From Terrimicrobium sacchariphilum (GTDB lineage Bacteria > Verrucomicrobiota > Verrucomicrobiia > Chthoniobacterales > Terrimicrobiaceae), in the NCBI RefSeq assembly GCF_001613545.1, contig NZ_BDCO01000002.1, positions 3,224,001-3,288,000 of the forward strand: a stretch of 64,000 nucleotides of DNA, given 5' to 3'. How positions within the stretch are numbered: position 1 is the stretch's first letter; each line of letters begins with the position of its first letter. The notes beneath the pieces were generated by a model. It made no database searches. It was not told the DNA's origin and saw only the letters and a list, made by a program, of their open reading frames with translations. The translations under genes were made by a program, and so were the position numbers. Shown piece by piece: positions 7,438 through 54,290 of this stretch.

Positions 7438-7487
7438 AATTTCGTTTCATCGTTTCATTCTTAAGAAATGAAACGAGAAACGAAATT
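7438..7487. promoter_or_regulatory. 50-bp imperfect palindrome, four CGTTTC half-sites
   Basis: The left arm and right arm are reverse complements apart from single-base gaps, meeting at a TTCTTAAGAA centre (7458-7467). CGTTTC occurs at 7443-7448 and 7451-7456, and its complement GAAACG at 7470-7475 and 7477-7482. It sits between the divergent MFS exporter (start 7345) and the histidine phosphatase (start about 7556). The symmetry suggests binding of a dimer or pair of dimers. It lacks the GC stem and T-run of an intrinsic terminator. Confidence 0.55.
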
Positions 7488-26743: not shown

Positions 26744-27646
26744 ATGGCCGAGGCTGAACTGACCGAAGTATTCGACGCCGCGTTCCTGCGCCGCCTCGAG
26801 AACCTGCACCTGCAAGTCCGCAAGGTGCTCTCCGGCAGCCTCCGCGCCGAGCGCCGCTCGCGCAAGACCGGCTCCAGCCTGGAATTCGCCGACTACCGCA
26901 ACTACGCCCCCGGCGACGACCTCCGCCGCGTGGACTGGAGCATCTACGCCCGCATCGACCGCCTCATGACGAAGCTCTATGAGGAGGAGGAGGACCTCGA
27001 GGTCGCCATCCTCCTCGACGCCAGCACCTCCATGCGCTGGCAGGCGGATTCGCAAAAGTGGACCCTCGCCCGCGAGCTGGCCGCCTCGCTCGCCTATCTC
27101 GGCCTCACCGGGCTGGATCGCGTGGGCCTCTGGGTCTTCGACTCCTCCCTCCGCGCCGAGAGCGGCATCTTTCGCGGACGCTCCGATTTTCACAGCGTCA
27201 TCCGGTTCCTGCGAAACTACCGGCCCGACTCACGCACCGCCACCGACCTCGGCGAAAGCCTCACGCGCTTTGCCCGCATGAAGCGCCGCCCCGGCCTCGC
27301 CATCGTGCTCACCGATTGCCTCGACCCCGCCGGGTACGAGCGCGGCTTCTCGGCCATCCTTGGCCGCCACTTTGCCCTCCACGTCATCCAGCTCATGGAC
27401 CCCGCCGAGACCACCCTGGGCGAAACGGGAGACCTGAAGCTCCGCGACAGCGAGACCGGCGAGGAGATCGCCGTCACCGCCAGCCCCGCCCTCCTGCGCG
27501 CCTACGCCGCCGAAGTCGAGCGCTTCCGCGACGGGGTGAAAACCTGGTGCCAGCGCGCGGGCGCGGGCTATTCCTTCATCGACACCCGCCAGACCTTTGA
27601 GGATGTCGTGCTGCGGCTCTTCCGCCGCGACGGCTTGCTGCGATGA
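26744..27646 (+). CDS. DUF58 domain protein (vWA-like)
   Basis: A 300-residue DUF58 protein: FRKTGSSLEFADYRNYAPGDDLRRVDWSIYAR, followed by a vWA-like fold with an intact MIDAS start LLDASTSMRW (DxSxS). Such genes usually follow a MoxR-type AAA ATPase and precede BatA/BatB genes, forming a chaperone-like or envelope stress module. No moxR is next to it here; the upstream gene is divergent. The stop overlaps the next gene's start by four bases. Confidence 0.88.
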   Translation: MAEAELTEVFDAAFLRRLENLHLQVRKVLSGSLRAERRSRKTGSSLEFADYRNYAPGDDLRRVDWSIYARIDRLMTKLYEEEEDLEVAILLDASTSMRWQADSQKWTLARELAASLAYLGLTGLDRVGLWVFDSSLRAESGIFRGRSDFHSVIRFLRNYRPDSRTATDLGESLTRFARMKRRPGLAIVLTDCLDPAGYERGFSAILGRHFALHVIQLMDPAETTLGETGDLKLRDSETGEEIAVTASPALLRAYAAEVERFRDGVKTWCQRAGAGYSFIDTRQTFEDVVLRLFRRDGLLR

Positions 27647-29463
27647 ATTTCCTCTTCCCCGCCGCCTTTTTCCTCGCCGTCCTCATCCCGGCCATCATCG
27701 CGCTGTATCTCCAGCGCCCGCGCCAGCGGCTCCGCGAGGTGCCCTCCCTCATGCTCTGGCAGCGCGTGCTGGAGCGCGAACCCCGCCGCCGCTTCCTCGG
27801 TCGCCTCCGCCGCTGGCTCTCGCTCCTCCTCCAGCTCCTGATTTTCCTGCTCCTCCTCCTCGCCCTCGCCCGGCCCGATTTCTTCCACCCGCGCGGCCAG
27901 CGCTCCACTGTCATCGTCCTCGACCTCCGCGCGCGCATGCAGGCGGGAAATGCCTTCTTCGACGCCATTGCCGCCGCCCGCCAGGCCTCCGCCGGGGCCG
28001 GACCGGATGAACAGATCGCCATCCTCGGCGCAGCCGGGACGCCGCGCATCATCTCGCCGTTTTCCTGCGATCCCATCCAGCTCCGCCAGAGCCTCGCCAG
28101 CCTCACACCCTCCGATGGCGGCGGTTCACTCGACGAAACCCTCGGTCTCGCCCGCGACCTCCTGGCCGGACGCCCCGGCGCGACCCGCCTCCTCGTCATC
28201 ACCGACCGCCCGTTGCCGGAAAACTCGACAACGCCCGCAGGCTCCTCCGCCAACGCCCACGCGACTCAAGTCATCCTCACCGGCTCGCCGCTCGACAACG
28301 CCGCCATCCTCGAGCTCGCCCAGGCCCCGCTCCCCGCCAGCCCGCAGTCCGCCGAGGTTTTCGTCAAGGTCGCCAACTTCGCCGCCGCCCCCCGCGACAT
28401 CGAGTGGGAACTCCGCCTCGACGGCCGCACCATCGACCTCCAGTCGCAAAAACTCGCCCCCGGCGAACAGCGCGACTTTTCCTCCATCGTTCCCGCCGAA
28501 TCGCTCCAGAGCCTCACCGGATTCCTCGAGGCCCGCCTCACCTCCGGCGACAAATTCCCCGTCGACGACACCGCCCGCACATGGCTCCCCGTGCAGCGCC
28601 GCACGCCCGTCCTCCTCATCTCCGCAGGTAATCCCTACCTCGAGGGCGCTCTGAAGGCCGATCCGTCGATCGCACTGGAAATCCTCACCCCCGACGCGTG
28701 GCGCGCCTCGCTTGCCGCCAGCTTCCGCGTCGTGGTCTTCGACGACTGGCTCCCCGCCGACCTCACCCTGGCAAACCTCCCCGCCTCCGGCGTCCTCTTC
28801 TTTGGCAAGGTGCCCGGCGAAACCGGCCAGCCGCTCCCCATCGCCGATCTCACCGCCGATCCGCGCAGCCCGTTGCTGTGGAATGTCGACTTCACCACCA
28901 CGCGCTTCGCCAACGCCACACCGCTCCCGCCCGCCCCCGCCGGATGGCGCGCAACCCCCGCCGTCACCTCCGCCTCCGGCCCGCTCGTCCTCGCGCTGGA
29001 ATCCCCCGAGGGCCGCCGCGTCGTCGCCACCGCCTTCCCTGTCGCCGGGTCCAATTTCCCGCTGAAAGCCGCCTTCCCGCTCTTCATCAGCAACACCGTC
29101 CACTGGCTCGCCGCCGGACCCGCCGCACTGCCCAATCTCCGCGCCGGACAGGTCTACATCCCCGCCGAAGGCGAATCCGTCGCCACCACCCCCGGCGAAA
29201 AACACGACGCCTGGAGCACCACGCCCACGCTCCTCGACCGCGTCGGCTTCTACGAACGCACCGACGCCCACTCGTCCTCCTGGCTGTCAGTCAATACCGC
29301 CGACGCCGCCGAATCCGACCTCCGCACCGCCACCGGCTCCGGCGGCCTCCTCCTCTCCGCCGCCCGCTTCGCCGGTTTCCAGCTCTGGCAATGGCTCGCC
29401 CTCGCCGCCGCCACCCTCATCCTCCTCGAATGGTGGCTCCACCACCGGCGGATGACGGAATAG
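27643..29463 (+). CDS. BatA-domain membrane protein with degenerate vWA
   Basis: A 606-residue protein. The N terminus is a BatA (aerotolerance) domain with two hydrophobic helices (FLFPAAFFLAVLIPAIIALYL and LSLLLQLLIFLLLLLALARP). A vWA-like region follows, with VIVLDLRARMQAG where DxSxS is expected, so the metal-binding site looks lost. The rest is a beta-rich periplasmic region, and a C-terminal helix (LWQWLALAAATLILLEWWLHH) closes the protein. It is coupled to DUF58. The role is unproven; family links are to oxygen tolerance and envelope integrity. A C-family repeat starts four bases after the stop codon. Confidence 0.82.
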   Translation: MNFLFPAAFFLAVLIPAIIALYLQRPRQRLREVPSLMLWQRVLEREPRRRFLGRLRRWLSLLLQLLIFLLLLLALARPDFFHPRGQRSTVIVLDLRARMQAGNAFFDAIAAARQASAGAGPDEQIAILGAAGTPRIISPFSCDPIQLRQSLASLTPSDGGGSLDETLGLARDLLAGRPGATRLLVITDRPLPENSTTPAGSSANAHATQVILTGSPLDNAAILELAQAPLPASPQSAEVFVKVANFAAAPRDIEWELRLDGRTIDLQSQKLAPGEQRDFSSIVPAESLQSLTGFLEARLTSGDKFPVDDTARTWLPVQRRTPVLLISAGNPYLEGALKADPSIALEILTPDAWRASLAASFRVVVFDDWLPADLTLANLPASGVLFFGKVPGETGQPLPIADLTADPRSPLLWNVDFTTTRFANATPLPPAPAGWRATPAVTSASGPLVLALESPEGRRVVATAFPVAGSNFPLKAAFPLFISNTVHWLAAGPAALPNLRAGQVYIPAEGESVATTPGEKHDAWSTTPTLLDRVGFYERTDAHSSSWLSVNTADAAESDLRTATGSGGLLLSAARFAGFQLWQWLALAAATLILLEWWLHHRRMTE

Positions 29464-29467
29464 GCCA

Positions 29468-29498
29468 AAGTCGGATTTCGGAACGGGGAAGTCGGAAA
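29468..29498 (+). repeat. C-family repeat directly after a stop codon
   Basis: AAGTCGGATTTCGGAACGGGGAAGTCGG-type sequence beginning four bases after the BatA-gene stop. It matches, with a short deletion, the repeats at 48876-48909 and 63561-63594 read in gene direction. Confidence 0.55.
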
Positions 29499-29549
29499 CC
29501 AAACCCCTGGCCCTTATAAACGCGCCAAATCCAAAGAACTGCCATGCGA

Positions 29550-29573
29550 ACTCCTTTTTCTATAAAAAGGAGT
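29550..29573. repeat. 10-bp perfect inverted repeat at AT-rich island edge
   Basis: ACTCCTTTTT (29550-29559) and AAAAAGGAGT (29564-29573) with a CTAT loop. It lies 13 bases beyond the stop of the zinc-ribbon membrane gene and may terminate it, or mark the edge of the AT-rich segment. Confidence 0.5.
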
Positions 29574-29586
29574 ATACCAGCCGCCA

Positions 29587-30093
29587 CTACTCGCCCCACA
29601 CCATCAACAGAACCAGAATGGTGCCAAAAATCAAAGAAAGCCCGATCACTCCAACAGCACTAACCCTCACCGCATAGCCAGCTCTCGCCTGATGTAAACG
29701 ATGTATATAATCAGCATCGCGGGTCCTACAAATCGAACTAAAAACTAAGCTCCCCTTAGCGAGCACGAAAGCAAATGTCGCCGCGCCAAAAACAATACCG
29801 ATTGAGCGTATTGATAAATCGGCATACACTGAAGCAGCAACCCACCCACACACCCCGGCGCAAAAACACCCAAAACCAATTCCAAACAACACTATATTAC
29901 AGACATATAGAATCTTGTGCCACCAACTTAGGAACACCCACTCAATCCTCCATCCGGACACAGATTCCTTTTTGCACTTAGAACAAAAAAGCAACGGCGA
30001 ACCAACAACAACCCCGAATGGAGGCGTAAAGCTATTAAGGACCTTTCCACAGCCCGGACACTTTTCTGAACCGACAGATAAAAGAAAAATCAT
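29587..30093 (-). CDS. Zinc-ribbon membrane protein (168 aa)
   Basis: A 168-residue protein with a short N-terminal hydrophobic start, two CxxC pairs forming a possible zinc ribbon (CPGC near residue 12 and CSKC near 38), and three transmembrane helices (about 55-80, 90-112 and 140-165). No named family recognised. Its codons are much richer in A and T than the rest of the window, as are those of the upstream HTH gene. This suggests recent joint acquisition. Confidence 0.65.
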   Translation of the reverse strand: MIFLLSVGSEKCPGCGKVLNSFTPPFGVVVGSPLLFCSKCKKESVSGWRIEWVFLSWWHKILYVCNIVLFGIGFGCFCAGVCGWVAASVYADLSIRSIGIVFGAATFAFVLAKGSLVFSSICRTRDADYIHRLHQARAGYAVRVSAVGVIGLSLIFGTILVLLMVWGE

Positions 30094-30227
30094 AAATTCT
30101 TCCCCTCAAACCCAAAGCATTCTCAACACCGAACCTCAATTACAAAAAAGCAATTCCTTCAAGATGAGAACATTCAACAAAAACGCCTTCACCTCGAGTG
30201 AGACACACGTCAACACGACAAGCGAAT
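30094..30227. other. AT-rich gap between the two island genes
   Basis: 134 bp, strongly A/T-rich, no ORF or hairpin evident. Spacing permits either cotranscription or a separate promoter for the zinc-ribbon gene. Confidence 0.3.
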
Positions 30228-30665
30228 TTATCTCAGCAATATCTCCGACACACCCAATTCCTCGCAAACCAAAAAGAGGCAATCGAGATTCCAGTTTAAC
30301 ACATCTTCATTGGTCAACCCATCTGAGGAGAGATCATATCCGACACGCGTGGAGAATTCCGAAAAGCTCATGCCCGATTCATTTAGCTGAGTCAGAATAA
30401 GGCCGGGCAGGTCATTCAGAAGAACCTTCCTTCCATCCGCGTTCTCCGAATCATGAAAGCGAGCAATCGCCTCCTCCTTTAGCACCTTGGAAAGCAGGAT
30501 GATTTTGTCCAAGCTTACGGCCTGCCGGAAATCGGCAGCGAACGTCTCAAGATCAAAATACGCCGCCGAAGATATTCCAACCATTCGAGCAACGTCCTGA
30601 GCCGAAAGCTCCAGCGCCTCCCTCCGCGCCTTCAGAATGCCCGGCATATTTTCGACATCGAACAT
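30228..30665 (-). CDS. Double-HTH XRE-like regulator
   Basis: A 145-residue protein. Residues about 8-60 are an XRE-type helix-turn-helix (ILKARREALELSAQDVARMVGISSAAYFDLE). Residues about 85-143 look like a second, diverged HTH (LILTQLNESGMSFSEFSTRVGYDLSS, then LFLVCEELGVSEILL). It probably binds DNA as a small regulator. It is the upstream member of an AT-rich pair with the zinc-ribbon membrane protein. Confidence 0.65.
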   Translation of the reverse strand: MFDVENMPGILKARREALELSAQDVARMVGISSAAYFDLETFAADFRQAVSLDKIILLSKVLKEEAIARFHDSENADGRKVLLNDLPGLILTQLNESGMSFSEFSTRVGYDLSSDGLTNEDVLNWNLDCLFLVCEELGVSEILLR

Positions 30666-30789
30666 GCTGCCAAGATAGGACAGCCATCCTCCCCGCGGTC
30701 AACCCTCCACCACAACAAAGGGACAAGACTCAAGGCACCGCGACAGCCCCGCCATCCCGCCATAAAAACCAGTCTCCCCGACGAACCCA

Positions 30790-30823
30790 ACTTCCCACTT
30801 CCGCGATCCCACTTCCGACTTCG
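30790..30823 (-). repeat. C-family repeat, intergenic copy
   Basis: On the minus strand: CGAAGTCGGAAGTGGGATCG followed by CGGAAGTGGGAAGT. Unlike the other copies it does not follow a gene's stop codon; it lies 47 bases before the MgtC-family start. Confidence 0.55.
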
Positions 30824-30869
30824 TCGGATTTTTCACGCCTTCGCCCCGCAAATCCGCTAGAGTAGCCCC

Positions 30870-32105
30870 GTGACCCCCGACGTCATCCTCCAGCTCGCCG
30901 TCGCCTTCGGGCTCGGCCTCCTCCTCGGCCTCGAACGCGAGCGCAAGGAGGACCCCATCGCGGGCATCCGCACCTTTCCGCTCATCGCCCTCTTTGGCAC
31001 CGTCTGCGCGCAATTGAGCCGCCCCCTCGGCGGGTGGATCGTCGCCGTCGGGCTCGCCGCCCTTTCCGCCGTCCTCATCCTGGCAAACCTCGCAAAGAAC
31101 AAAACCGGCGAGCCCGATCCCGGCATCACCACCGAGGTCGCCGCCCTGCTCCTCTTTGCCATCGGCGCGCTGCTCGTCGTGGTCAACATCACCACCGGAG
31201 TCGTGCTCGCGGGCGTGATGGTCATCGTCCTGCACATGAAGGAGCCGCTGCACCGCTTCGCCGGGGCGGTCGGGCAAAAGGACATGCATGCCATCATGCA
31301 GTTCGTCCTCCTCAGCCTCGTCATCCTCCCCGTGCTGCCCAATGCGAACTACGGCCCCTACGGCGTGTGGAATCCCTTCAAGCTCTGGCTCATGGTCGTG
31401 CTCATCGTCGGCATCAGCCTCGGCGGTTATGTCGCGTACAAGATCTTCGGCAGCCGCGCGGGCACGCTCCTCGGCGGCGTTATCGGCGGGCTCATCTCCA
31501 GCACCGCCACCACGGTAAGCTTTGCTAAGCGCGGCGCGCAGCCCCACCTCGCGGGCCTCGCCGCCGTGGTCATCCTCACCGCCTCGTGCGTCTCGCTCGG
31601 CCGCGTCCTCGTCGAGATCGCCGTCATGGCCCCCGCGCAATTCCCGCAAATTGCCGCGCCCATCGCCCTCCTCGCCGCCGCCACCTGCGCCGTCACCGCC
31701 GTCTTTTACCTCCGCGGCAGCCACGCCACGGAACGCCTCCCCGCCCAGAAAAACCCCGCCGAACTCAAGTCCGCCCTCGTCTTTGGCGGCCTGTATGCCC
31801 TCGTCCTCGTCGCCGTCGCCTTCTCGAAGGAACAGCTCGGCGACGCCGGGCTCTACGCCGTGGCCCTCATCTCCGGCCTCACCGACATGGACGCCATCAC
31901 GCTCTCCTCCGCCCAGCTCGCGGCCAGGGGCCAGCTCGACGCCTCCACCGCCTGGCGCGCCATCCTCATCGCCGCGCTGGCAAATTTCCTCTTTAAGTTC
32001 CTCATCGTCGCCGGAGTCCGCTCCCCCCGTCTCACCCGCAGCGTCGCCGCAGGCTTCGGCCTTATCGCCCTCGCCGGAGCCGCCCTGCTCGTCCTTTGGG
32101 ATTGA
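30870..32105 (+). CDS. MgtC/SapB-DUF4010 membrane protein
   Basis: A 411-residue membrane protein. The N-terminal MgtC/SapB-type domain shows AVAFGLGLLLGLERERKED and IAGIRTFPLIALFGTVCA. The larger C-terminal DUF4010 part has LGGVIGGLISSTATTVSFAKR and GLTDMDAITLSSAQLA. About twelve hydrophobic helices are present. A transport or stress role at the inner membrane is assumed for the family but not established. The start is GTG. Confidence 0.85.
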   Translation: MTPDVILQLAVAFGLGLLLGLERERKEDPIAGIRTFPLIALFGTVCAQLSRPLGGWIVAVGLAALSAVLILANLAKNKTGEPDPGITTEVAALLLFAIGALLVVVNITTGVVLAGVMVIVLHMKEPLHRFAGAVGQKDMHAIMQFVLLSLVILPVLPNANYGPYGVWNPFKLWLMVVLIVGISLGGYVAYKIFGSRAGTLLGGVIGGLISSTATTVSFAKRGAQPHLAGLAAVVILTASCVSLGRVLVEIAVMAPAQFPQIAAPIALLAAATCAVTAVFYLRGSHATERLPAQKNPAELKSALVFGGLYALVLVAVAFSKEQLGDAGLYAVALISGLTDMDAITLSSAQLAARGQLDASTAWRAILIAALANFLFKFLIVAGVRSPRLTRSVAAGFGLIALAGAALLVLWD

Positions 32106-52444: not shown

Positions 52445-53266
52445 ATGGACTTAATTACCATGCACTGGGCTGCCTATCCGCGGCAGTTTCCATCCTCCAT
52501 TCCCGTGCAAAACACCGGCTATTTCCCGGCCAAGACCAGTTGGATCGATCTCGCGTTCCCCTCGTGCAACTTCTCCCTCATCCTCTCGGGTACGGGCGAG
52601 TTTCACCGCAAGGGAGCACGCCACGAGGTCCTCGCCCCCTGCGTAATCACGCAGTGGCCCGGCGAGCATGTGCATTACGGCCCCGCTCCGGGCTCCACCT
52701 GGGAGGAGTTTTATCTCATCTATGGCCCGGAGCACATGGCGGCATTTCGTCGCATGGGATTTGTCCATACACCGCGACCGGTCTGGCCGATCCGCAACCT
52801 CGGGGAGGTGCGCCTCCAGGTCGATAAACTCGGTGCCCTGATGAAATCTCCCGAACCGGAGACCGAGGTCGATCGCGCGGACAGGGCCTGCGAGCGCCTC
52901 GTGCTGGAGACCCTGGTCGGGCCGGGCCCCACGGACGACACCGTGGTCGAGAAAATCATCCGGCACTTGAAAAAGGATCTCGCGCAGCCGTGCGACTTCG
53001 GCGCGGTCGCCCGCCGCCACGGCATGTCCGCCTCCACCCTGCGACGCCGCTGGTTCGAGACCACCGGCGAATCTCCCGGCCGCTACCTTCTCAATCTCCG
53101 CATCCGCCAGGCCTGCCGCCTCCTCGCCGAGACCCGCCTCTCCATCGGCGAAATCGCCGCGCAAACCGGCTTCGAGGATGCGATGTATTTCTCCCGCCGC
53201 TTCCGCATCGAGACGCACACCACCCCGTCGGACTATCGCAGGCGCAACGCCTCCGGTATGCACTGA
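52445..53266 (+). CDS. AraC family transcriptional regulator
   Basis: A 273-residue regulator. The N-terminal part is a cupin-like sensing domain (FPSCNFSLILSGTGEFHRKGARHEVLAPCVIT). The C-terminal part has two AraC HTH motifs (DFGAVARRHGMSASTLRRRWFETTGESPGRYLLNLRIRQACRLL, then LSIGEIAAQTGFEDAMYFSRRFR). It likely activates the divergent oxidoreductase-thuA unit in response to a sugar. Confidence 0.9.
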   Translation: MDLITMHWAAYPRQFPSSIPVQNTGYFPAKTSWIDLAFPSCNFSLILSGTGEFHRKGARHEVLAPCVITQWPGEHVHYGPAPGSTWEEFYLIYGPEHMAAFRRMGFVHTPRPVWPIRNLGEVRLQVDKLGALMKSPEPETEVDRADRACERLVLETLVGPGPTDDTVVEKIIRHLKKDLAQPCDFGAVARRHGMSASTLRRRWFETTGESPGRYLLNLRIRQACRLLAETRLSIGEIAAQTGFEDAMYFSRRFRIETHTTPSDYRRRNASGMH

Positions 53267-53426
53267 TCCCAACGCCATTCGGCCAACCCACTGAAGCGAA
53301 AATCCGCTGTGTTACGCAGCTTCAAGTGGCGGAAATTCAAAAAACACGTCTTTTCTTCCCTTTCAATTCTGAGGTCAGACTGGATTTAGAAATCCCGAAG
53401 ACTCAAGAAAAACTTCCGAGAACCTC

Positions 53427-54290
53427 CTAAAAGCGGTTGTTCCAAAAAATTGATTTCGCAAGCACTGCAAGCGCAAGAACACCCAATCCGATTAGCCCGA
53501 ACACCCAGAACAGATGGGTGACGTTGCCACCACCACTCCAGGCGGCTCCCATACCTGCCAGCACTACTATGAACCCCGCACTGACAAAAAAGAGGAGCCC
53601 TGCCAACAAAAACAGAGGAATCGCGAACCTCCATCGTATCCTGCTTGATGCCGTAAAGCCGAGAACAAGCATCCCAAGAAACGCCGGACCGAAAAGGCTC
53701 ATTCCAAATGATGAACCCCAGGCCAGCGTGTAAGTGACGTCTGGATCGTAAAATATCTGATATCCGTAAGTTCCATTTTTCTGGAGATCATTTCCCTGGA
53801 GCAGAATTGATTTCAGATAATAATCCGAACGACCTTGTTCTGCGGCACTCCGGTATAAGCTATACTGTATTGAGGAATTCTGAACTGCCTGATTCTCGTG
53901 ATCGTGCCACGCGCGGCCGTCCGACTTGTAACCAAAAGACGCATACTCGGTCGTCCGCACATCGACTGGATAGTTTTTCTCGGTCCACTGAACAGGACGC
54001 TCTAGTTGTCCGGATTTCCAATGAATGGTGTTAAATTTCTGCGGCTGATACCACGCTCTGGTTTGAGAAGCTCCGTCAGCTAGAGCTACAAGATCCACAA
54101 CAAACCATCGATCTTTAGCCTGAAGGATCAGGTATCTCCGATCAAGAGATACAGATCCTGCAGAAATACTGAAATCCTCTTTCTCCTCTGCTGAACTGGG
54201 TCCGACAAACTGCCTATCAAAGCGTACGGTCGTGCATAAAACAAAAACGAGGCAAAGAACGATCGCTATGAAAACTCGAACAAACTTCAT
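53427..54290 (-). CDS. Membrane protein of unknown function (287 aa)
   Basis: A 287-residue protein with an N-terminal hydrophobic helix (VFIAIVLCLVFVLCT), a soluble region of about 160 residues containing YLILQAKDRWFVVDLV, and three C-terminal transmembrane helices (about 195-215, 222-245, 258-280). No named family recognised. It is only one base from the end of rlpA. Its GC content is clearly lower than its neighbours', which hints at later insertion. Confidence 0.65.
   Translation of the reverse strand: MKFVRVFIAIVLCLVFVLCTTVRFDRQFVGPSSAEEKEDFSISAGSVSLDRRYLILQAKDRWFVVDLVALADGASQTRAWYQPQKFNTIHWKSGQLERPVQWTEKNYPVDVRTTEYASFGYKSDGRAWHDHENQAVQNSSIQYSLYRSAAEQGRSDYYLKSILLQGNDLQKNGTYGYQIFYDPDVTYTLAWGSSFGMSLFGPAFLGMLVLGFTASSRIRWRFAIPLFLLAGLLFFVSAGFIVVLAGMGAAWSGGGNVTHLFWVFGLIGLGVLALAVLAKSIFWNNRF

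Follow-up and report, generated by a model that had tools for sequence, protein, structure and literature searches.

Introduction

The intervening sequence (IVS) of Coxiella burnetii has a 28-bp terminal stem and an S23p open reading frame (ORF), which is preceded by three tandem heptamers, GACAGAT (PMC4990558). According to the same source, no function is known for S23p/four-helix-bundle proteins (PMC4990558). Dispersed heptamer repeats have also been described in Nostoc, GGGGA(C/T)T, and Xanthomonas, GGGAATC, and were interpreted as G-quadruplex repeats (PMC4692102). The Xanthomonas sites include 70 and 75 cases of convergent two-site pairs and reportedly change less than control intergenic regions, 10% as against about 30% (PMC4692102). 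The terms "four helix," "S23," and "transposase" are absent from the main text of that paper (PMC4692102). Another group of short repeats, the REPs linked to RAYT, bears the mark GTAG, and a REP/REPIN-RAYT system is present in the verrucomicrobium Opitutus terrae (PMC3733652).

Within the open-access literature covered, we found no paper that links heptamer arms facing each other with four-helix-bundle genes located elsewhere than in rRNA. Here we describe a locus of Terrimicrobium sacchariphilum NM-5 and set it beside these systems.

An AT-Rich Island and Its Two Genes

The window, meaning the whole stretch of 64,000 nucleotides analyzed here, lies on the second of the three contigs (C2:3224001-3288000) that make up the 4,751,807-base NM-5 genome. 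It was compared with two congeners, Spartobacteria bacterium LR76 (G002) and the MAG SCN18_30_10_14_R3_B_61_17 (G001; hereafter the MAG). A preliminary description had singled out an AT-rich island bordered by copies of a "C repeat," and this island is real: positions 29500-30680 have 47.3% GC, as compared to 61.7% for the window, and include its lowest-GC 1.2 kb. Across the 64 kb, 1.2-kb segments have a mean GC of 0.616 (sd 0.036), and the lowest value outside the island is 0.4975, near 53,200. Codon-position GC is atypical in the island genes (0.47/0.46/0.46 in the membrane-protein gene and 0.57/0.34/0.59 in the HTH gene); at position 3 the two flanking genes have 0.87 and 0.90. The island DNA is thus compositionally foreign, and it is strain-specific. 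There is another AT-rich, strain-specific block at 53270-54290, where 1.2-kb GC falls to 0.4975. It has no C repeat and holds a 287-aa minus-strand ORF without a Pfam match, and its counterpart measures 19 bp in the MAG and 1,403 bp in LR76.

To the left of the island, a plus-strand gene at 27643-29463 encodes a BatA/VWA-domain membrane protein (606 aa; Pfam BatA 3e-13, VWA_2 2e-7), with orthologs 97% identical in both the MAG and LR76. On the right, also on the plus strand, 30870-32105 encodes an MgtC/DUF4010 membrane protein (411 aa; Pfam DUF4010 4.6e-61, MgtC 8.2e-20), whose orthologs are 98% identical in LR76 and 91% in the MAG. The two island genes share one strand, as had been stated; it is the minus strand, with 134 bp between the genes and the HTH gene upstream.

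This upstream gene (30228-30665, minus strand) encodes an XRE-type HTH protein of 145 aa, in which Pfam HTH_3 matches residues 11-63 (E = 2.1e-5; 24.9 bits, above the curated cut-off of 23). Its earlier designation as a double-HTH protein lacks support, as Pfam gives this one HTH_3 and its second half matches no HTH family there; BLASTP of the two halves against each other likewise gave no alignment. Matches elsewhere were to generic regulators only (PHROGs), to weakly similar HTH domains only, in capH (E = 3.2e-4) and control proteins (PADLOC), and to nothing beyond generic HTH (NCBIfam). The downstream gene (29587-30093, minus strand) encodes a 168-aa membrane protein, described here from its translation and hydropathy. 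The CxxC pair attributed to it is seen in the translation at residues 12-15 and 37-40, and it has three hydrophobic segments, with peaks at 61-79, 100-118, and 147-165. No PADLOC (E ≤ 1), PHROGs, NCBIfam, or above-cut-off Pfam match was found for it. Single-sequence structure models of each protein alone were poor, with mean pLDDT of 42.4 (HTH) and 58.0 (membrane).

A search of 117 relatives for both genes returned only the genome of origin. Among 387 genomes of the phylum, the membrane protein had eight matches at E ≤ 0.01, its own genome included (the other seven at E 0.001-0.0095), and the HTH protein had four, again with its own, the remaining three being weak (E 0.001-0.0095). Plasmids, phages, and viral contigs yielded no relative of either gene, and neither did GTDB contigs, scanned with the HTH protein alone. 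When weak hits were re-examined in a search of ten short loci, L068 aligned with most of the HTH protein (25% identity, E 1e-5) and L061 with 30 residues of the membrane protein (50% identity, E 3e-4). Both are at most possible distant relatives of the island proteins, although the L068 match in particular may be a true one, and in the collections covered neither gene gained a convincing relative. The preliminary description had named a lack of co-occurrence elsewhere as counting against its reading; such a lack is indeed seen, in the weak sense that neither gene has a second copy in these searches. Judging tentatively from the HTH match and gene order, the HTH protein would repress the two-gene operon to which it belongs, with the zinc-ribbon membrane protein as a membrane-located effector or sensor under HTH control.

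The perfect 10-bp inverted repeat reported at the left side of the island is present (29550-29559/29564-29573). Its two halves enclose a 4-nt loop, and the whole (29550-29573) lies 13 bp beyond the membrane-gene stop codon. When the island was simulated 1000 times with a first-order Markov model, 0.4% of the sequences contained such a perfect repeat, and there are two in the whole 64-kb window, the second at 7450-7476 with a 7-nt loop. The repeat at 29550-29573 is a possible 3' hairpin; it has no T-run, and a consensus terminator scan gives no call there. The scan does call a plus-strand terminator-like stem followed by a T-run at 30814-30828, overlapping the right arm described below, although the two terminator-like sites found, versus 2.6 expected in shuffles, are no excess over chance. 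An Rfam scan of 29300-30950 gave no family match, and a tRNA scan was empty.

One Slot, Three Contents

Both congeners keep the BatA/VWA and MgtC/DUF4010 flanks and lack the island at this place, an absence that the preliminary description had proposed looking for in close relatives. The slot is about 2.05 kb long in LR76, where it holds a 597-aa NACHT protein (Pfam 6.5e-7), and about 2.2 kb in the MAG, with four ORFs of 130-179 aa, one of them DUF4279. None of the three pairings has any interior sequence in common (0%), and the slot between these two genes therefore holds three unrelated contents in three congeners.

C repeats do flank the island and face each other, as had been described, but their strength is unequal. 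The left arm (29465-29497, plus strand) is degenerate and starts directly behind the left gene's stop codon, scoring 13.6 bits over 29468-29497 with a model of the repeat, R1 (E = 0.0046, 80 kb searched). The right arm (30789-30823, minus strand) scores 47.7 bits. Both are also present in the MAG; in LR76 the left arm is absent and the right arm is a degenerate remnant. In NM-5 and the MAG, the slot thus has a facing heptamer arm on either side. Homology between these two continues across the left arm as far as 29497 and returns at 30755, inside the right arm, where the spacer 30755-30788 is still alignable with the MAG. Since this homology takes in both arms, the arm pair predates the divergence of the contents. 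Homology between NM-5 and LR76 runs up to 29462 and resumes from 30808.

By DNA search of 26 family genomes each, the contents of LR76 and the MAG were found nowhere else, except for one 59-base match in G003 (E = 7.4e-4). A shuttling of cargo among sites was rejected on this result.

NACHT proteins are a class with known defence members. The occupation of the same slot by a NACHT protein in LR76 is one reason to consider the earlier suggestion that the island pair is a phage-defence or immunity cassette, in which the XRE regulator would serve a membrane effector; others are the weak capH match of the HTH protein (3.2e-4) and the character of the pair itself, AT-rich and strain-specific with a membrane partner. 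Database evidence does not bear the suggestion out. PADLOC gives weak generic HTH matches for the regulator and none for the membrane protein, the capH match spans the generic HTH only, and the membrane protein also lacks a PHROGs, NCBIfam, or above-cut-off Pfam match. The pair has no relatives among the phages, plasmids, and viral contigs searched, the occupants of the MAG slot have no PADLOC match, and none of these searches gave the pair a defence link. We thus regard a defence cassette as unlikely.

A Dispersed Heptamer Repeat

The arms belong to a repeat whose consensus over 36 copies, GCGAAGTCGGAAGTGGGATTGCGGAAGTCGGAAGTTTTT, is heptamer-periodic, with units of the form GANNNNN (GAAGTCG-type). 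Model R1 finds at least 20 copies in NM-5, at least 28 in the MAG, and at least 23 in LR76, these counts being lower bounds because 150 candidates were scored per genome. Elsewhere in the family there are at least 27 and at least seven copies in two genomes of another genus and at least two in a third genus, with none among the candidates scored in four others. In GTDB contigs, a set from which the NM-5 genome may be missing, a stricter exact pattern was found in LR76 and the MAG only.

Where neighboring repeats lie less than 2.6 kb apart in the Terrimicrobium loci covered, 22 of 32 pairs point inward, four outward, and six along the same strand; the 32 are not independent cases, since orthologous pairs are counted per species. 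Eight loci of the other genus comprise five short facing hairpins with 5-38 bp between the arms, two same-strand series, and one locus (L102) to which we return below. The short hairpins measure about 100-125 bp and occur in both Terrimicrobium and the other genus. The two same-strand series, L108 and L109, have a regular spacing of about 166-200 bp and near-identical spacers.

Dispersed, mainly intergenic repeats that form facing doublets and short hairpins recall REP/REPIN elements that owe their mobility to a RAYT (Y1) transposase, and Y1_Tnp genes are indeed present in all three Terrimicrobium genomes (one, two, and three matches). However, no arm match surrounds five of the six Y1_Tnp genes of the genus (the sixth, G002:C16:162669, lies outside the sample), the consensus of 36 copies has no GTAG tag and, by eye, no palindrome of its own, and the genes with which the arms do go together are those of PF05635. 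The link of these repeats to RAYT was rejected for want of any arm match at the five loci, and it is very improbable that the arms are a system of this kind.

Facing Arms and Four-Helix-Bundle Genes

At one Terrimicrobium repeat site, S2, the interior between the arms is a PF05635 gene (8.5e-19; 23S_rRNA_IVP) that adjoins a GTPase gene in all three Terrimicrobium genomes (L031 4263-4782, L040, and L052). The same arrangement, 57% identical, is found in the other genus at L102, with a PF05635 gene between arms and an adjoining GTPase gene. In both S2 and L102, the right arm is readable in the GTPase frame.

We assessed this association in 29 records with PF05635-type genes: 23 plasmid records (one place per record, 23 of 25 places), two phage records, and four viral contigs. 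The latter were found by an alignment-based viral scan, which gave four matches, where a scan with a single four-helix-bundle protein had given nothing. Arms were measured as the best local alignment of the left flank with the reverse-complemented right flank. With a threshold of 14, chosen after seeing an earlier control of 35 other genes, 26 of the 29 records scored at or above it (the 29 include the near-duplicate rows L115/L142/L143, L127/L129/L141, and L136/L137), as compared to none of 493 random same-length intervals from the same loci, whose maximum was 13.0. The single gene to reach 14 in the earlier control was a cas1 gene adjacent to an element. The strongest self-repeat of the best arm fell at lag 7 in 26 of 29 records, and lag-7 identity was at least 0.57 in 25; L126 has strong arms that are barely heptameric. 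The three that fell short on arm score were both phage records and Anabaena L132. Conversely, where four viral contigs carry exact fourfold heptamer arrays, the stretch examined had no four-helix-bundle match.

Besides Verrucomicrobiota, hosts of arm-bearing genes belong to Cyanobacteriota, Chloroflexota, Bacteroidota, and Spirochaetota. The heptamer unit varies by host, and in Nostoc commune SO-36 it is GAAGTCG, as in Terrimicrobium. On plasmids, the four-helix-bundle genes are often flanked on both sides by genes with a defence or DNA-modification annotation (L116, L118, L119, L122, L125, L132, L133, L134, L142, and L143), the neighbors being drmD and PglX or MmeI, DUF1156 and Swt1-HEPN, cas2 and cas1, csx2 and cas1, or helicase and methylase.

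Nostoc plasmids offer same-site comparisons. In strain C052, a 422-bp block of arms and gene on pC052_A stands against 188 bp of other DNA on pC052_D, and the flanks are 91.8% and 99.7% identical; the edges are the same in p057_A, which comes from another strain. Among three plasmids without the element, the interiors are 89-95% alike, so that it is the state without the element that is conserved. At the other site, a 466-bp block in Nostoc ATCC 53789 and N6 stands against 328 bp in pC052_C that belong to a gene for a DNA cytosine methyltransferase. The blocks are sharp-edged, homology being lost no more than about 10 bp from where the arms end on the outside. From these alignments we read the blocks as insertion with replacement of target DNA; an insertion plus a deletion, a rare double event, is a less likely course.

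Content Change at Repeat Sites

Gaps of at least 60 bp were counted between NM-5 and LR76 over the window, and between NM-5 and the MAG over 17380-64000. Repeats lie at three of 17 gaps in the first comparison and at two of 12 in the second, leaving 14 and 10, respectively, without a repeat. Seen from the other side, the window's three repeat sites all fall in LR76 gaps and two of them in MAG gaps, among roughly 44 intergenic regions (from a rough ORF set). Repeat sites are enriched among the changed places, in a tiny sample, and most changes are repeat-free. As most nearby indels are repeat-free, repeats are unnecessary for gene turnover here, and the differing content of LR76 in the absence of an arm pair (arm score 7.0) indicates that arms are unnecessary for turnover at the slot as well.

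Nine orthologous repeat sites were compared across the genus, with the one-arm site S8 and the copies in L042, L044, L048, L057-L060, and L094-L098, which lacked matched loci, left aside. Little or nothing is common between species at S0, S3, S6, S7, and S9, where, at S3, S6, S7, and S9, at least one genome is without a full arm pair and the interval edge was set by the homology break. The interior of S4 is common to two of three species, that of S5 is mostly shared, and those of S1 and S2 are shared completely or almost completely among alignable pairs. Contents at these sites include unknown ORFs. S4 (L033 3908-4664, L054 3726-4463, and L043 3476-3932) contains an arm-bounded barstar-family gene in NM-5 and LR76; in the MAG this gene is missing, and the interval is non-coding with nested arms. 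At S7, LR76 has an IS481-type transposase between facing arms (L049 3744-5395), NM-5 an unknown ORF of 146 aa, and the MAG a short non-coding spacer.

We did not adopt a general rule that arms cause variability, because most gaps are repeat-free, some arm sites are stable, and the Xanthomonas report is the opposite. That report of stable sites speaks against any general rule of variable slots, although the nine Terrimicrobium sites, taken alone, hint at more frequent content change in arm-bounded intergenic regions.

Origin of the Island Arms

Given that facing arms are typical of PF05635 genes elsewhere, the island arms are probably the ends of such an element. The arm score of the NM-5 island, 15.0, exceeds the 13.0 maximum of the 493 controls, while the LR76 slot, without an arm pair, scores 7.0. 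S2 and L102, with a PF05635 gene between such arms, are the complete version. The arms at 29465-29497 and 30789-30823 would be the old ends of an element of the intervening-sequence type that the common ancestor of NM-5 and the MAG already carried and whose interior has since been exchanged, such that the arms now bound an accessory-gene slot. Against this stand the weakness of the left arm (13.6 bits), the lack of a PF05635 gene, neither island protein matching PF05635 in Pfam, and the stability of arm sites S1, S2, and, mostly, S5, as well as the different LR76 content without an arm pair, the repeat-free majority of nearby gaps, the Xanthomonas report, and the viral heptamer arrays that lack a four-helix-bundle match. 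On balance, we lean slightly toward an old intervening-sequence-like element with a later exchanged interior.

Plain horizontal acquisition, by illegitimate or flank-mediated recombination at a tolerated intergenic position, would leave the arms as unrelated neighbors. It accounts for the repeat-free majority of congener gaps in the window (14/17, 10/12), for the similar AT-rich insert at 53270-54290 (19 bp in the MAG, no repeat), and for the new content that LR76 has at the slot without an arm pair. Against it, NM-5 and the MAG cease to be homologous at the left arm's inner edge and about 34 bp to the inside of the right one, and repeat sites often lie in gaps (3/3 versus LR76 and 2/3 versus the MAG, where 17 gaps fall among roughly 44 intergenic regions). 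We consider it a credible second reading, with a probability well short of even.

More broadly, it is conceivable, and we put it forward with less confidence than not, that facing degenerate-heptamer arrays are the ends of a widespread, unrecognized class of intervening sequences outside rRNA. In such a class, the S23p/PF05635 protein would act on the arms and target DNA would be replaced, and leftover Terrimicrobium arm pairs would have become slots taking accessory genes (the HTH/zinc-ribbon pair, NACHT, barstar, and the IS481-type transposase). If true, a single explanation would cover the dispersed heptamer repeats of unrelated bacteria and a role for S23p. The Xanthomonas and Nostoc heptamer repeats are, in the passages that describe them, tied to no mobile gene (PMC4692102). 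If the arms are termini of one element type across phyla, S23p function and repeat origin become testable together, and the same-site plasmid pairs of Nostoc, of which one comes from the same strain, are natural controls with and without the element. The island itself is of value as a delimited slot for which the three congeners provide three alternative contents. More was learned from the C repeats, in which the preliminary description had seen no more than borders.

Comparison With Described Systems

The arm-bounded PF05635 genes resemble the 23S rRNA IVS, which RNase III excises, in having an inverted-repeat stem around an S23p/four-helix-bundle ORF, and differ from it in their location, which is in or between ordinary genes and not in rRNA, and in having a heptamer arm at either end. 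The island shares with the 23S rRNA IVS the inverted-repeat arms at both ends, whereas the S23p gene is absent and the slot lies between two protein genes rather than in 23S rRNA. Lacking a four-helix-bundle gene, it does not belong among S23p elements, and its ends may still be of the same kind. The HTH protein is like XRE-family regulators (HTH_3) over residues 11-63, while its second half and its gene partner match no family searched.

As with REP/REPIN systems, the repeats are short, dispersed, and arranged in inverted doublets, but they consist of heptamer arms without GTAG and without linkage to RAYT. The likeness to the Xanthomonas and Nostoc repeats described in PMC4692102 lies in dispersed heptamer arrays, which in Xanthomonas also form convergent pairs; a point of difference is that the Xanthomonas sites are reported there to be more stable than controls.
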